40,166 nucleotides of DNA. Origin: a virus. Of the stretch, positions 26,462-37,377 are shown piece after piece (the first letter of the stretch is position 1; each line of letters starts with the position of its first letter). The stretch lies in the IMG/VR virus record IMGVR_UViG_3300044821_000021, positions 1 to 40,166 of that record, one strand, 5' to 3'. A program made the position numbers and the translations under genes. The notes beneath the pieces are model-generated. The model searched no databases, was not told the DNA's origin, and saw only the letters and a list, made by a program, of their open reading frames with translations.

Positions 26462-27814
26462 ATGGCTCAACAGATCTTAAGTACAAATACTTTTACAACG
26501 GCTAAATGGATTGTTTCTGCAACAGCATCCAATGGAACTCATACAACAATAGCTGCTGCCTTAACTTCCGCTTCTTCCGGAGATACAATATTCATTAGAC
26601 CAGGTACTTACACTGAAAATATAACTTTAAAAGCAGGAGTTAATTTAACTGCTTATCAGTGTGATTCTGGATATACTGGTGGAGTTGCTAATGTTATAAT
26701 AAATGGAACATGTTCTTTTTCATCAGCAGGAACAGTATCTATTAGTGGTGTAATGCTACAAACTAATGGATCAACTGCATTCCTTGCGTTAAGTGGAAGC
26801 GCAGCATCAATTGTAAATTTAATGGGATGTAATTTAAACTGCACAAGTAATACAGGTATCACAAATAGTGTGGCAAATACATCATCCATCGTTACTATTA
26901 CAAACTGTACAGGTGATTTAGGAACTACAGGAATAGCTTATTTTTCTGATAGTTCTACAGGTATCATGGTAATTGAAGATTCTACTCTTGTAAATTCAGG
27001 ATTATCTACAACTGCTAGCACAAAATCAGCTGGCTCTATAGCCATTGTAAGATCAAAGTTGTTTGCAACTGTTACACACTCTTCATCTAGTGTAAATTCT
27101 TTATATGATCATTCTAGACTCGATTGCGCTGCAATAAATACTACTGCATTAACAACTAGCGGAACAGGAAGAGTTACAGTGCAAGAGTGTATTTTTGCTT
27201 CTGGATCAGCTTCTTCCATCTCAATAGGTTCTGGAACAACTGTAGTTTTATCAAATACAAGTATTGATTCTACAAATACGAACGCTGTAACAGGTGCTGG
27301 AACTTTACAATATACGGAATTTTGTACTATAAGTAGTGGAAAATTATTCAACACAACAACTTTAACAAAACAAGCATGTCACGCAAATTTATATGGTATA
27401 ACTACTGGAGTAGCTCCGGCTGCTGGCTTTGTCGGAGAAAGTATCAGAGGTTATAATGGAAGCCCAATTAGTTTAACAACAAACACGCCAGTTAATATTA
27501 CCAGTATTAGTTTAACACCAGGGATCTGGGATGTTTCTGGAATTGTACAATACAGTAGCAATACAACCACTAACACAACCGCTTATCAGATTTCTATATC
27601 AGCAGTAAGTGCAACTCAAGCAACTATTGGTGGAGATGATAATGTTAATATCCAATGGGGAAATGGTGTAGTACGACATGGGCCTGCTCTAACAATTCCT
27701 TCATTAAGAGTGACACTTTCTGCTACAACTACTTATTATTTAGTGGCACAAGCAACTTTTACATTGTCAACTTTAACAGCTTTTGGAAGAATTTCAGCGA
27801 CGAGAGTGGCTTAG
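26462..27814 (+). CDS. Tail spike with pectate-lyase-like beta-helix
   Basis: The 450-residue product begins with HTTIAAALTSASSGDTIFIRPGTYTENITL-type sequence, the standard entry to a right-handed parallel beta-helix (about 28-310). A C-terminal beta module follows (TPVNITSISLTPGIWDVSG ... FGRISATRVA). Such spikes bind or cleave surface glycans; catalytic residues cannot be identified. Its last 21 bases overlap the opposing glycosyltransferase gene. Confidence 0.8.
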   Translation: MAQQILSTNTFTTAKWIVSATASNGTHTTIAAALTSASSGDTIFIRPGTYTENITLKAGVNLTAYQCDSGYTGGVANVIINGTCSFSSAGTVSISGVMLQTNGSTAFLALSGSAASIVNLMGCNLNCTSNTGITNSVANTSSIVTITNCTGDLGTTGIAYFSDSSTGIMVIEDSTLVNSGLSTTASTKSAGSIAIVRSKLFATVTHSSSSVNSLYDHSRLDCAAINTTALTTSGTGRVTVQECIFASGSASSISIGSGTTVVLSNTSIDSTNTNAVTGAGTLQYTEFCTISSGKLFNTTTLTKQACHANLYGITTGVAPAAGFVGESIRGYNGSPISLTTNTPVNITSISLTPGIWDVSGIVQYSSNTTTNTTAYQISISAVSATQATIGGDDNVNIQWGNGVVRHGPALTIPSLRVTLSATTTYYLVAQATFTLSTLTAFGRISATRVA

Positions 27815-28648
27815 ATCGGATAAAATCTCATCTCTTACTGAATTCAATTCTTTATTAGCTTCTATTATTGCATCATCATATCCCCATGATCTTCTTCTGG
27901 GGATCTTCTTATTATGCATAAAGTGTTCATCTCTAGTCCAATAGTGATTGATTCTAAATATGTTTACGCTATGTTGCTTACTCATACAATCAACATTCCG
28001 CTCAAAATTCTCTGTGACTATATGCTTTGGAGGGTACATAAAGAAGAAGTGAGGATTTAAGCATTGAGAGACGTATTCAGGTCTTACGATACATTTGATG
28101 TGTTTATTAGCTGCATAACCTAACTTAGCACGCATGATTAGGTGATCAACCATATTCTCACCTTTAGGAATCTTGTCTACACCTGAGGTTCCATACATCA
28201 CCCAGTTAACTCCTATCCCACCATACAGTTCGTATTTCTTTAGTAACTTGTTAAGATTCTTGCCTTGAGGGTTAAATAAAAACTCATCTGTATCTAGAAA
28301 TGCACACCACTTGACTCGTCCTGAAATCTTATTAATGCAGTCCATATAGGCACCACATTGAATAGATATCCACTTACCCCCATCATTCTCATGATTGAAG
28401 TTCCAATCAAAGACTTCTACTGTCTTGTTTTTTATGTAAGGGCTTAAGATTTTCTTATAGTCATCAGGACTTCGATTATTATAAAGATAGAAGTGTTGAA
28501 CGCCTTGTTTCTTATGGCATTCGATCCATTCTGGAAGGTACTCCACATCATCTTGAAATATAGCGCATACACACAAATTGTACTCGTAAGCTTTTAAATT
28601 ACAGAAGCTTAAAACAAATAATAGTATTATTGATATATATATCTTCAT
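27794..28648 (-). CDS. Glycosyltransferase family 92-like, with signal peptide
   Basis: The 284-residue protein starts with a signal-peptide-like hydrophobic segment (2-18) and a possible cleavage after NLKA. The GT92/DUF23 core follows: CAIFQDDVEYLPEWIECH, FYLYNNRSPDDY, and DTDEFLF (119-125) carrying the metal-binding DxD. The family transfers sugars from nucleotide donors. An exported glycosyltransferase is unusual in a phage, since nucleotide sugars are cytoplasmic; the segment may instead be a membrane anchor. It is coupled (ATGA) to the membrane-protein gene upstream. Likely role: modifying host surface glycans. Confidence 0.85.
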   Translation of the reverse strand: MKIYISIILLFVLSFCNLKAYEYNLCVCAIFQDDVEYLPEWIECHKKQGVQHFYLYNNRSPDDYKKILSPYIKNKTVEVFDWNFNHENDGGKWISIQCGAYMDCINKISGRVKWCAFLDTDEFLFNPQGKNLNKLLKKYELYGGIGVNWVMYGTSGVDKIPKGENMVDHLIMRAKLGYAANKHIKCIVRPEYVSQCLNPHFFFMYPPKHIVTENFERNVDCMSKQHSVNIFRINHYWTRDEHFMHNKKIPRRRSWGYDDAIIEANKELNSVRDEILSDLSHSRR

Positions 28649-31623: not shown

Positions 31624-32166
31624 CTAATCCTTTTGGAAGAAGTGAGTCCACACCTGGTATATGGCTAAAAAAAAACCATCGTCAATAGGGTACTCGTATA
31701 TTTTTGCTTGATGACCATGTTTGTTAAGATGAAGAAAGTAGATCTTGCGTATGTCATGGCCTGCTTTCTTTGCTAGATAGGCGTAGGCACATCCCTGTGC
31801 TTTCCATGTCTTGGATGGTCTATTTGAAGTCTTTATATCTACGATAGCAAGACCGTCTGGTGTTTTAATGATTAGGTCAACTTGTCCCGTAATCTTTAAC
31901 TCATCATCCCAAAACCGTTGCTCCATCATTATGACTTCATGGCCCAGACTCCACCACTTCTTAAAGGAGTCAATATATCCACTGGTCTCATCATCAGTTC
32001 CAATCTCTCCGATGTCTTGCATTATCCCTTCACAGATCTTATGAACTTTGGTTCCTCTCTCTGCTGCATGGGATACAATGTTAGCATCGATCTTGTCTAA
32101 CCCGGAGAAAGGGTAGAGAATATTTGTGACGCGGTTATAGTTTTCTCTAGTGTTTTTGTCTTTCAC
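31624..32166 (-). CDS. PD-(D/E)XK nuclease (RecB/Cas4-like)
   Basis: The 180-residue protein shows the motifs of the superfamily in order: ERGTKVH with H42; ITGQVDLII with D97; LAIVDIKTS with D110 and K112; and a following AQGCAYAY (Q124...Y) as in RecB motif 3. Such phage enzymes resect DNA ends for ERF-type annealing. It lies two genes upstream of erf in the same operon and overlaps the preceding small membrane gene by 4 bases. No iron-sulphur cysteine cluster is visible. Confidence 0.85.
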   Translation of the reverse strand: MKDKNTRENYNRVTNILYPFSGLDKIDANIVSHAAERGTKVHKICEGIMQDIGEIGTDDETSGYIDSFKKWWSLGHEVIMMEQRFWDDELKITGQVDLIIKTPDGLAIVDIKTSNRPSKTWKAQGCAYAYLAKKAGHDIRKIYFLHLNKHGHQAKIYEYPIDDGFFLAIYQVWTHFFQKD

Positions 32167-32348
32167 GATGTAGAGTTTGTTTTAATTGTTTTAAAAGTAA
32201 GCTTTGGTGTATATGCGACAGTACTAACAGGATCTTTATATGCAATGAAGATTGCGAAAGTAATCACGAGAATGAGAAACAATAAGATAGCTAGAAGCAC
32301 ATATCTTTTGTTGATTCCTTCCATGATTTCCTTCCACACTTCGCGCAT
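32163..32348 (-). CDS. Small single-pass membrane protein (61 aa)
   Basis: The product has a basic N-terminal start, one strong transmembrane helix (about 16-36) and a Thr/Lys-rich C-terminal tail. It is the first gene of the leftward recombination operon and overlaps the nuclease start. Function unknown. Confidence 0.65.
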   Translation of the reverse strand: MREVWKEIMEGINKRYVLLAILLFLILVITFAIFIAYKDPVSTVAYTPKLTFKTIKTNSTS

Positions 32349-32403
32349 TTTCTGAACCGAGTGTAAATCTTTATTTTAAACACAACCTAGCAGAAAAGTT
32401 TTG

Positions 32404-32414
32404 CTTGTGACAAG
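32404..32414. promoter_or_regulatory. Palindrome CTTGTGACAAG in a divergent promoter region
   Basis: An 11-base palindrome lies between the divergent recombination (32348) and replication (32442) operons. On the plus strand, TTGCTT with TAACAT 17 bases later forms a fair promoter around it; on the minus strand, TTGTCA overlaps it. An upstream TGTAAATC-TTTATTTTAA (32362-32379) resembles the elements at 3667 and 5979. A repressor or activator could control both operons here. Confidence 0.4.
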
Positions 32415-32441
32415 TTATTTTTTTAACATGCGTGATATTTT

Positions 32442-32762
32442 ATGATTGATGTCTTGAAAGCAGAAGTGAAAGTTAATGACACAAGAATTGGAATAGTTGA
32501 CGTAATGTACTATGACTTAGTTGTTTACTGTGATATATGTTTATATAAGAACGAAAATCTCTGGATTAGAATGCCTGAAGTGTGGTTAACACCAGAAAGA
32601 AAGAAACGTTTTAACTCATGGCCTCAAAAGTGCAAATCAGATCACTTTCAGAATGTAGTTTTAAAAAAAGTATTTGACATGATAGGCTTAACTTTAGAGA
32701 TTGCCATAGAAAAACGAAAAGAGTTTATAAACAAGAAACGAAAACAAAAAAATAGCTCCTAG
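32442..32762 (+). CDS. Possible SpoVG-like DNA-binding protein (106 aa)
   Basis: Residues 1-80 give the pattern of SpoVG-type proteins: alternating strands, a VYCDICLYKNENLWIRMPE stretch, then a basic loop, and a helix with HFQNVVLKKVFDMIG. The last 20 residues are strongly basic. SpoVG proteins bind DNA or RNA and regulate genes; the match is structural and only tentative. First gene of the replication operon. Its stop lies in the hairpin at 32753. Confidence 0.6.
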   Translation: MIDVLKAEVKVNDTRIGIVDVMYYDLVVYCDICLYKNENLWIRMPEVWLTPERKKRFNSWPQKCKSDHFQNVVLKKVFDMIGLTLEIAIEKRKEFINKKRKQKNSS

Positions 32763-32781
32763 GTTTTACACCTAGAAGCTA
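32741..32781 (-). terminator. Intrinsic terminator, minus strand
   Basis: Bases 32753-32764 and 32770-32781 form a 12-bp stem with a 5-base loop. On the minus strand the stem is unbroken, with one G-U pair; on the plus strand that position is a C/A mismatch. On the minus strand it is followed by TTTTTTTGTTTT. This is a classic intrinsic terminator for a leftward RNA, and no leftward protein gene explains it. It directly abuts the folded element at 32784-32899. Confidence 0.75.
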
Positions 32782-32783
32782 TA

Positions 32784-32899
32784 GACTTAATGAAAACTAT
32801 CTGTCTGTCTGAAAAATGATTCCCGGCAAGGAATCTAGATAAGATCGTAAGATCGAGGACCCAATACCTCCGATTTTATCCAGATAGCATCATTAAGTC
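32784..32899 (-). ncRNA. Candidate structured RNA: three-way junction with 17-bp closing stem
   Basis: Closing stem: 32784-32793 with 32890-32899 (10 bp) and 32797-32803 with 32881-32887 (7 bp), separated by a small internal loop. Arm 1: 32818-32823 with 32830-32835 (6 bp, loop CGGCAA). Arm 2: 32838-32847 with 32871-32880 (10 bp), a 7-base bulge, then 32855-32858 with 32867-32870, loop ACCCAATA. The terminator at 32753-32781 begins 2 bases beyond, favouring a minus-strand RNA of about 160 bases. Arm 2 has one G-T pair that is better on the plus strand, so a plus-strand leader for 32925 is the alternative. A TATAAA (minus, 32930-32935) is the best -10 candidate, with no good -35. Confidence 0.55.
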
Positions 32900-32908
32900 C
32901 AGAGTAAA

Positions 32909-32923
32909 GTTCTTTTGGAGAAC
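32909..32923 (+). promoter_or_regulatory. Hairpin over the ribosome site of the 32925 gene
   Basis: GTTCT and AGAAC form a 5-bp stem with loop TTTGG, so the GGAGA ribosome site is partly paired one base before ATG 32925. It could lower or regulate translation; a leftward RNA from 32930 would be antisense to it. Confidence 0.35.
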
Positions 32924-32924
32924 C

Positions 32925-33197
32925 ATGGATTTATATGCTATTACCTCACAAGAGATCCTGGAAAGGATTTCACGTCATTGTCCTGAAGCATTATCTACAT
33001 ATTTACAATGTATAAACAGAGCAGATTCTAACGGAAGTATCTACTTCTCTAAGAGTTTAGTCGAAATTGACATGTCTGAAAAATGGGCTAAGTTCAGAAA
33101 TAGAATCAAGAAATTGGCCTTAGAGAACCTTCTGGAATGGCATCCATTTAATGATGGCATATCAGTAACTTTGGTGGACCATAATGAAAATGAGTAA
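32925..33197 (+). CDS. Small winged-helix-like phage protein (90 aa)
   Basis: The product begins MDLYAITSQEILERISRHCPE and continues with helices and a basic stretch (KFRNRIKKLALENLLEWHPF), a layout like a small winged-helix DNA-binding protein of the early region. It overlaps the next gene by 14 bases. Its start region is covered by the hairpin and candidate antisense RNA described alongside. Confidence 0.65.
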   Translation: MDLYAITSQEILERISRHCPEALSTYLQCINRADSNGSIYFSKSLVEIDMSEKWAKFRNRIKKLALENLLEWHPFNDGISVTLVDHNENE

Positions 33198-33468
33198 GCC
33201 GGCTGTTTGTTGTGATAGCTGTTTTGAGAAGATTGCAAATAGAAGTACCAGCGCTGCTAGGCTCTGGCTTGACTTATGCGATCTAGAAATTGCTTCACAA
33301 GGCTTATTTGGTTTAAAGATTAAAGATTCCTCTGTGTTGCGTATCTTAGAACTTCTTGGATTCATTCTAACGACAGATTCCTCAAATGTACTTATGGTTA
33401 AGGTCAACGGCAAGAAGACTGATGCTATGGGAACATATTTCTGTGGAGGCAAGTGCGATGAAGTCTGA
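33184..33468 (+). CDS. Small Cys-cluster protein (94 aa)
   Basis: Contains VCCDSCF near the N-terminus (Cys9, 10, 13) and YFCGGKC near the C-terminus (Cys87, 91), which could together bind one zinc ion around a helical core. GGTGGA precedes ATG 33184 at 5-base spacing; ATG 33190 is an alternative. It overlaps both neighbours. Likely an early regulatory protein; family unnamed. Confidence 0.65.
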   Translation: MKMSKPAVCCDSCFEKIANRSTSAARLWLDLCDLEIASQGLFGLKIKDSSVLRILELLGFILTTDSSNVLMVKVNGKKTDAMGTYFCGGKCDEV

Positions 33469-36255: not shown

Positions 36256-36893
36256 AAATAGTGATACCAGGAGTCCCAATTCCTCAGGCAAGAATGAGGC
36301 ATTCAAACTTTAAAGGCTTTGTAAAAACATATGACCCAAAGGCTAAAGAAAAGAAAGTCATAAGACATCATCTAGAAAGCAAAAAAACTTTACTTTCATT
36401 TGAGTATCCAAGAATCACTTTTCTGTTTCATATGCCCATTCCTTCATCTATTCGAAAGAGAGACGTAGATCTTTATAACTCAGGGAGACTGAAGCACGAC
36501 AAAAAGCCTGATGTAGATAACTTAGTCAAACTTTACTTAGATTGCTTAGATGGTATTGCAATACATGGAGACCAAAAGGTTTCTCTTGGTCCTTGTATTA
36601 AAGTGTATCATCCTGATCCTAAGACTGTTATATGGATTAATGAGACTACGAAAAAGCTAACTCCTTGGGAATTGGATGTTGCCTTTTTAAACGCTGAAGA
36701 ACCCGATATACCGTCATTTTCTGTACTGGATTACCCTTTCGGTTCTTGTAGCCTTTGGTCTCAAGTTCGTTCGCTATTTGACCGTACGTTAAGCCCTCTT
36801 GATGCCATTGAATCATTAGAGCGACCTGCTCTGCCTCCTGCTTTTCAGGAATTAGAAGATATGGCTTCTTATACGAATGGCATTTATCTTTAG
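36252..36893 (+). CDS. rusA: RusA-family Holliday junction resolvase with antisense-encoded C-terminal extension
   Basis: TTG 36252 is the likely start (AAAGGA 6 bases upstream, TTGA overlap). Residues 1-131 form a complete RusA domain: VIPGVPIPQARMR at the start, KPDVDNLVKLYLDCLDGIAI with D87 and D89, then GDQKV with D107, equivalent to the three catalytic aspartates. Family members are usually about 120-140 residues. Here 82 more residues follow, all lying opposite the 3' end of the recombinase gene. The extension is Pro/Leu-rich and unlike RusA. It resolves branched DNA during replication and recombination. Confidence 0.88.
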   Translation: MKIVIPGVPIPQARMRHSNFKGFVKTYDPKAKEKKVIRHHLESKKTLLSFEYPRITFLFHMPIPSSIRKRDVDLYNSGRLKHDKKPDVDNLVKLYLDCLDGIAIHGDQKVSLGPCIKVYHPDPKTVIWINETTKKLTPWELDVAFLNAEEPDIPSFSVLDYPFGSCSLWSQVRSLFDRTLSPLDAIESLERPALPPAFQELEDMASYTNGIYL

Positions 36894-37377
36894 TCATCTG
36901 CAATCTTGTCTCATCGGTTTTATATCCATACCAAGCAGTTCCAACTTTCTCCATGTTCGCTTGCTTTCTCTTTAAACCTGATATAGTTCGTATGCGTATA
37001 TTGTTTCTCTCTGTCTCTCCTAAGAATGCATAGATGTGGATGTTTGCATTGTCTATATGAGGCTCATAGAGAGATACAACAGTAACACCTTTCTTGATTA
37101 GCTTACTTCTGTATATATAAACCAACTCTTCTCCATCCCTAGCCAATCTGTCTAGCTTATAGATCACTAAGGTATCACCCTTCTTTACGAACTCAAGCAT
37201 CTCTTTAAGCTTAACTCTATCATCCATGGGTATGCGACTGGAAGTCTCTGGCTCATCGAACTGTACGATTTCATCGTCAGGTTGCCTGTTAGCCTCTACA
37301 TACTCAAAGCATTCTTTAATCTGGTTGTCTACAGTTTGCAACTTAGTAGACACTCTACTAAACACTACGTATCGCAT
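36646..37377 (-). CDS. Serine recombinase (resolvase/invertase type)
   Basis: The 243-residue protein has the resolvase catalytic domain: FSRVSTKLQTVDNQ with nucleophile S10, and VIYKLDRLARD with R77 and R80 (positions of the conserved DRLxR). A long helix follows (ETERNNIRIRT), then a C-terminal helix-turn-helix with QEGLTYGQIANELETKG and MTVYRVLQRLKR. The family catalyses inversion, resolution or integration. It is next to an XRE repressor, fitting a lifestyle switch. Its last 82 codons overlap the RusA extension tail to tail. Confidence 0.9.
   Translation of the reverse strand: MRYVVFSRVSTKLQTVDNQIKECFEYVEANRQPDDEIVQFDEPETSSRIPMDDRVKLKEMLEFVKKGDTLVIYKLDRLARDGEELVYIYRSKLIKKGVTVVSLYEPHIDNANIHIYAFLGETERNNIRIRTISGLKRKQANMEKVGTAWYGYKTDETRLQMTKDKCHSYKKPYLLIPEKQEAEQVALMIQWHQEGLTYGQIANELETKGYKNRKGNPVQKMTVYRVLQRLKRQHPIPKELAFS

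Follow-up and report, generated by a model that had tools for sequence, protein, structure and literature searches.

The gap of 162 bases (32763-32924) that separates the 32442 gene (106 aa) from the 32925 gene (90 aa) in the window, a virus record of 40,166 bases, is likely to be a translational switch under antisense-RNA control. A comparison of relatives at the sequence level supports the parts from which such a switch would be built, namely a conserved promoter and terminator of a leftward RNA, both of two alternative leader helices, and co-variation of the three arms that form them. We infer that both RNAs are made, that they pair in cells, and that lower translation is the output.

According to the proposed mechanism, the left arm of a closing stem would act as a pre-emptor that keeps the right arm engaged, leaving the start region of the 90-aa gene free (ON state). 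A leftward RNA of about 120 nt, predicted to start in the loop of the inner hairpin P2 and to end at a minus-strand terminator, would be complementary to the whole left half of the leader and, by pairing with it, would release the right arm. The freed arm would then pair with the start codon region and close the ribosome site (OFF state), shutting the head of an operon that includes an O/DnaD-like initiator and a DnaC-like loader. RNase III cleavage may contribute to the lowered translation. One short stretch would combine three roles, being promoter, template for the antisense RNA and switching arm of the mRNA.

Fold of the gap and the gene that it precedes

The structure that a preliminary description had assigned to the gap is indeed present, comprising a closing stem of 10 plus 7/8 bp, two inner hairpins and an adjoining terminator. 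On the plus strand, the leader fold places the left arm (pre-emptor) at 32784-32803, the inner hairpin P3, which is common to the folds of leader and antisense RNA, at 32818-32835, the inner hairpin P2 at 32846-32880, with the antisense +1 opposite its loop, and the right arm, whose partner is either the left arm or the start codon region, at 32866-32901. The latter region (32917-32942) consists of the Shine-Dalgarno motif GGAG (32917-32920), the ATG at 32925 and the first codons. Folding of 32741-32899 gave a minimum free energy of -61.5 kcal/mol for the minus strand, as compared to -33.2 ± 4.0 kcal/mol in shuffles (z -7.0), and of -53.1 kcal/mol for the plus strand (z -8.0); the backgrounds of the two strands differ, and the z-scores do not settle to which strand the structure belongs. 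A search of the window with Rfam covariance models returned zero matches up to E = 1, in keeping with the original impression that no known RNA family is involved.

The controlled gene (32925-33197, plus strand) is the first of the replication operon, which includes the O/DnaD-like (33811) and DnaC-like (34812) replication genes. Alignment, AlphaFold and Foldseek predict a winged-helix protein: the AlphaFold model reached a pLDDT of 82.5, and its best PDB match was the wHTH DNA-binding domain of CodY (E 0.0086, prob 1.00). The PHROGs search yielded zero matches and Pfam a single one below the cutoff (CX9C). Going by the modelled fold, the 90-aa protein is likely a DNA-binding regulator or a replication accessory. 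Among named phages, we found neither nucleotide relatives of the locus nor a convincing relative of the protein. The ATG of the downstream gene, at 33184, overlaps the 3' end of the 90-aa gene, so that coupling may spread the effect of the switch onward. A type I toxin-antitoxin system was considered and rejected, the target being a predicted winged-helix protein of 90 aa, whose sequence is not hydrophobic, and not a small hydrophobic toxin.

On the other side of the gap, the 106-aa gene (32442-32762, plus strand) ends inside the terminator hairpin. By eye its product looks SpoVG-like (..VVYCDICLYKNENLWIRMPE..), with no match in Pfam; the gene is lost or degraded in several relatives, in which the switch stays. 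Further upstream, a palindrome, CTTGTGACAAG, lies at 32404-32414 inside a divergent promoter gap, and a GACAAGTT(A)TTTTTT box, a possible operator, recurs upstream in relatives.

Conserved architecture in diverged relatives

Searches with the 90-aa protein as query yielded 18 and then 25 loci in viral contigs and one MAG contig. These represent 24 distinct loci, the window included; the 25th, the distant L006, came from a search with DnaC, and its 90-aa homologue was found as an open reading frame with a leader of its own. Further protein scans for more relatives were saturated. Of the 25 distinct loci, 21 show the arrangement described above ahead of the homologous 90-aa gene, with strongly diverged sequence, and one or more parts are missing from the other four (L021, L024, L040 and L046). 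Nearly all loci show, on the plus strand, an A run, a GC-rich hairpin and then a long-range stem around hairpins. The right arm is on average 56% identical among relatives, promoter bases counted in. Even L006, a much more distant locus, contains the same parts. Because MAFFT alignments over all relatives misalign the diverged stems, we used swapped-partner permutation tests instead of column covariation or a covariance model.

Two relatives have unusual layouts. In L009 (upstream of 6001), the right arm pairs with a nearby partner to form a simple long hairpin and no three-way junction is closed; the promoter, the terminator and the start-codon pairing are retained despite this variant layout. 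In L013 (upstream of 6001), tandem repeats (GGACANATGGACA...) lie between the terminator and the left arm; they resemble copies of its own ribosome site and start (GGACAGATGGAT), as if a decoy arm had been multiplied. As for the host, the one MAG contig and a TTACTTTG box had suggested Bacteroidetes; the terminase relatives come mostly from proteobacterial phages, so that a Bacteroidetes host is only one possibility.

A putative leftward RNA with its own promoter and terminator

Scanning for intrinsic terminators revealed a terminator-like site on the minus strand only (32746-32782), consisting of a stem from 32782 to 32752 followed by T6. The list of open reading frames contains no leftward protein gene that would account for it. 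In nearly all relatives a U run abuts the terminator hairpin, and in 22 loci the breaks in its stem showed a G-U/A-C asymmetry of 28:6 favouring the minus strand, where composition alone would give about 1.7:1. We conclude that the terminator serves a leftward RNA; on both its strand and the missing protein gene, the preliminary description is borne out. For the junction helices the corresponding ratio was 43:35, without clear strand bias. Once base composition is allowed for (again about 1.7:1), this value is not decisive, and the strand of the junction cannot be assigned by the G-U test.

Promoter scans placed an antisense -35 element, TGGACT, at 32896-32901 and a -10 element, TAAAAT, 17 bases from it at 32873-32878, both on the minus strand; the plus-strand complement of the -35, AGTCCA, is part of the switching right arm. 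Across the loci, the minus-strand base of the closing stem reads TGGACT, TGGACA or TAGACA, with TANNNT 17-18 bases further on. Of 25 loci, 19 match the fixed pattern T[TAG]GA[CT][ACT]-N17/18-TANNNT, mostly with an A eight bases past the -10. With generic sigma70 scoring, 17 of 25 loci have a leftward site whose -35 is 14-32 nt away from the ATG, as compared to 2.4 expected from shuffles, the position range having been set after the sites were seen. The -35 is mostly TGGAC and not TTGAC, which lets its complement pair with ATGGA.

Together, the retained promoter and terminator and the fold delimit a candidate antisense RNA of about 120 nt (32746-32865, minus strand), with its +1 at the A at 32865 and its 3' end in the U run 32751-32746; in the relatives its predicted length is mostly 100-124 nt, ranging from 82 to 191 nt. 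Judged from sequence, a leftward small RNA ending at the minus-strand terminator is thus very probably encoded, a counter-transcribed RNA with promoter and terminator of its own within the leader. The preliminary description had envisaged a leftward RNA of about 160 bases folded as a three-way junction. The leftward RNA and its terminator stand, while the length has to be revised, as the conserved promoter lies inside the closing stem: the promoter occupies the 5' arm of that stem, so an RNA that starts there is about 120 nt long, is without this arm and cannot form the junction. Its 5' end had been placed opposite the ribosome site of the 32925 gene. Beginning in the loop of P2, the RNA has its 5' end about 50 bases short of that site and is therefore antisense to the leader, not to the Shine-Dalgarno motif.

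For the leader itself, 13 of 22 loci have a rightward motif, NNGA[CT][AT]-N17-TA..[TC]T, immediately to the left of the hairpin, with 0.1 expected by simple shuffling; the pattern was derived from the same sequences, and it has a -10 that departs from TATAAT. Generic sigma70 scoring gives this promoter no support (5 of 22 loci versus 3.8 expected). The motif is not recognisable in the window, where the leader must therefore originate further upstream.

Two predicted helices compete for the right arm

When the leader was folded without its left half, the right arm paired with the start codon region. In the window, the fold of the released half gives TGGATTTA (32926-32933) and ATGCTAT (32935-32941), both on the plus strand, as the alternative partners. 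Permutation tests revealed that this pairing is specific to each locus: the duplex of right arm and gene start amounted to -16.95 kcal/mol for cognate and -13.26 kcal/mol for swapped partners, with none of 20,000 permutations as good (z -5.6). In sliding gene windows, the signal peaked at -18 to +30 (z -4.3 and -5.0) and was gone further downstream. It persisted in a 16-locus subset thinned of near relatives, which addresses the kinship of these non-independent loci in part, and, more weakly, when the -35 part was left out. Pairing of the left with the right arm was -30.7 kcal/mol for cognate and -15.4 kcal/mol for swapped partners (z -14), amounting to strong compensatory change across relatives, which the preliminary description had named as a check of its stems. 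On average, 27.8 of the 36 right-arm bases are engaged by the left side and 17.6 by the gene side; since 14.8 of them are common to the two helices, the helices compete. In many loci, moreover, the left arm is similar in sequence to the gene start (p 0.002). As computed, the leader can thus form two mutually exclusive helices that have one arm in common, one of them closing the ribosome site.

How much energy it takes to open the ribosome site was computed for the whole leader and for a covered state, in which the left half, the part complementary to the antisense RNA, was taken out of the fold. The cost was 5.7 kcal/mol for the former and 13.3 kcal/mol for the latter, a rise that all 21 loci examined show (p 1e-6); for the window the two values were 6.3 and 16.4 kcal/mol. 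Replacing the right arm in the covered state by those of other phages reduced the cost to 9.9 kcal/mol (p 4e-5), and shuffled or no right arms gave 7.1 and 5.0 kcal/mol. All ON and OFF energies reflect thermodynamic folding alone. Two loci, L017 and L019, are predicted to be mostly in the OFF fold even without the antisense RNA. The best account of the closing stem is that it represents one state of a rightward mRNA leader.

Alternative explanations

The locus could instead hold a simple antisense RNA of the OOP/sar type, whose duplex with the leader is cut by RNase III or directly blocks ribosomes, the alternative pairing of the right arm being incidental. The position beside replication genes, the terminator and the full complementarity all accord with this, and OOP does act via RNase III (PMC12197685); we nevertheless regard it as unlikely, because it leaves unexplained both the co-variation of right arm and gene start and the kept complementarity of the two arms. 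Direct action of the antisense RNA on the start codon in trans, conceivable because the 3' part of this RNA is similar to the right arm, is very unlikely. The left arm is like the gene start in several relatives, for example L032 (ATGGATCTA) and L006 (TGTGGATCAAAACATA versus TGTGAATCAATACATA), yet the antisense body pairs only weakly better with cognate gene starts (z -2), as compared to z -5 for the right arm. The single leftward RNA of about 160 nt that contains a three-way junction folds well on paper and is nonetheless hardly credible: it needs an upstream promoter, and none is seen conserved there, the conserved one sitting inside the closing stem.

Two further readings invoke the DNA or its replication. 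In a single-stranded DNA promoter of the Frpo/ssi or M13 c-strand origin type, the closing stem would form in single-stranded DNA as a -35/-10 duplex from which polymerase makes a primer or early transcript. The stem does span about -35 to -10, the +1 lies in or near a loop as in Frpo (PMC11541004), and G-U pairs in the stem are without strand bias. Such a promoter predicts neither co-variation between right arm and start codon nor a conserved terminator ending the RNA, and the window derives from a tailed dsDNA phage without an obvious single-stranded entry stage, so we judge this reading quite improbable. Replication control or priming by RNA, in the manner of ColE1 RNA I/RNA II or of the noncoding-RNA origins of extrachromosomal mycobacterial prophages, is the least probable of all these readings, even though the noncoding RNA adjoins replication genes and RNA-based prophage origins exist (PMC7157519). 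Its co-evolving partner is the start codon of a protein, and O/DnaD-like and DnaC-like proteins are already encoded in the operon. A packaging RNA like that of phi29 was considered, shape being conserved while sequence has diverged, and rejected, as the element lies at a replication operon and co-varies with a start codon.

Relation to known antisense systems

The closest parallels to the proposed switch are plasmid copy-control systems. In staphylococcal RepA_N plasmids, pSK41 RNAI is an antisense RNA of about 83 nt directed to the leader, well upstream of the start, and the proposed effect of its binding is to induce a stem-loop in which the ribosome site is sequestered (PMC5703833). The phage element would share the antisense-to-leader layout and the sequestering stem-loop, a comparison by mechanism and not by sequence: it would control a phage winged-helix gene heading a replication operon and not a plasmid rep gene, the promoter of its antisense RNA lies within the switching arm, and its pre-emptor often mimics the start codon. 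The controlled gene is not a RepA_N initiator. In the pT181 RNAI/repC leader and pIP501 RNAIII systems, a pre-emptor and the lower stem-loop compete for the 5' arm of the latter, and the antisense RNA captures the pre-emptor side (PMC5703833). A pre-emptor arm trapped by antisense RNA is likewise proposed here. The output in pT181 and pIP501 is transcription attenuation, whereas the lower stem of the phage leader includes codons and shows no U run, so that translation is the likely output; scanning 31900-33300 revealed no terminator-like site on the plus strand of the kind that a pT181-type attenuator has. From its sequence, the element would work like pSK41 and pT181 copy control, yet we do not file it as a member.

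Among phage RNAs, lambda OOP is likewise a short leftward RNA with its own promoter and terminator, antisense beside replication genes. The antisense target of OOP is the end of cII, and its action goes by way of RNase III (PMC12197685; PMC5869508). The comparison with OOP made at the outset was right as a general idea and does not extend to the target: OOP overlaps the 3' end of cII and has no leader switch, whereas the RNA described here lies opposite the 32925 leader and reaches no more of the 32442 gene than its last codons. P22 sar is a phage antisense RNA that lowers translation of a regulator (PMC12197685). Its target differs, being ant. A competing leader helix of the kind proposed for the phage switch is not known for sar. 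The Frpo/ssi promoters of conjugative plasmids carry their -35 and -10 inside a hairpin stem (PMC11541004), as the antisense promoter does here; no co-variation with a start codon is known there. Our search of the open-access literature found no phage antisense RNA that refolds a leader likewise. The logic is known from staphylococcal plasmids, and the phage example appears to be new as far as this literature showed.

Possible roles of the switch

If the proposed switch operates, it would bring the pre-emptor/sequestor logic of plasmid copy control to the control of a replication operon in an uncultivated phage group. With over 20 natural alleles, in which three arms co-evolve, compensatory mutations would provide a direct test. 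It is possible, albeit doubtful, that the antisense RNA is a diffusible immunity determinant by which a resident phage silences the replication operon of incoming phages of the same leader allele. Were this true, selection on compatibility would explain why relatives differ almost completely in the sequence of stems and loops and yet retain the architecture, the promoter and the pairing with the start codon, and the alleles would be an RNA analogue of repressor immunity groups. An RNA working in trans would constitute an RNA-based superinfection barrier.

Elsewhere in the window, three genes deserve mention. A minus-strand gene at 27794-28648 encodes a family 92 glycosyltransferase (Pfam E 1e-29), which is unusual for a 40-kb phage, and the plus-strand gene at 1591-2568 encodes a 325-aa protein that by eye looks like an RNA ligase. 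The minus-strand gene at 36646-37377 encodes a short serine recombinase with a resolvase domain and the start of a recombinase domain, perhaps a truncated or compact integrase.
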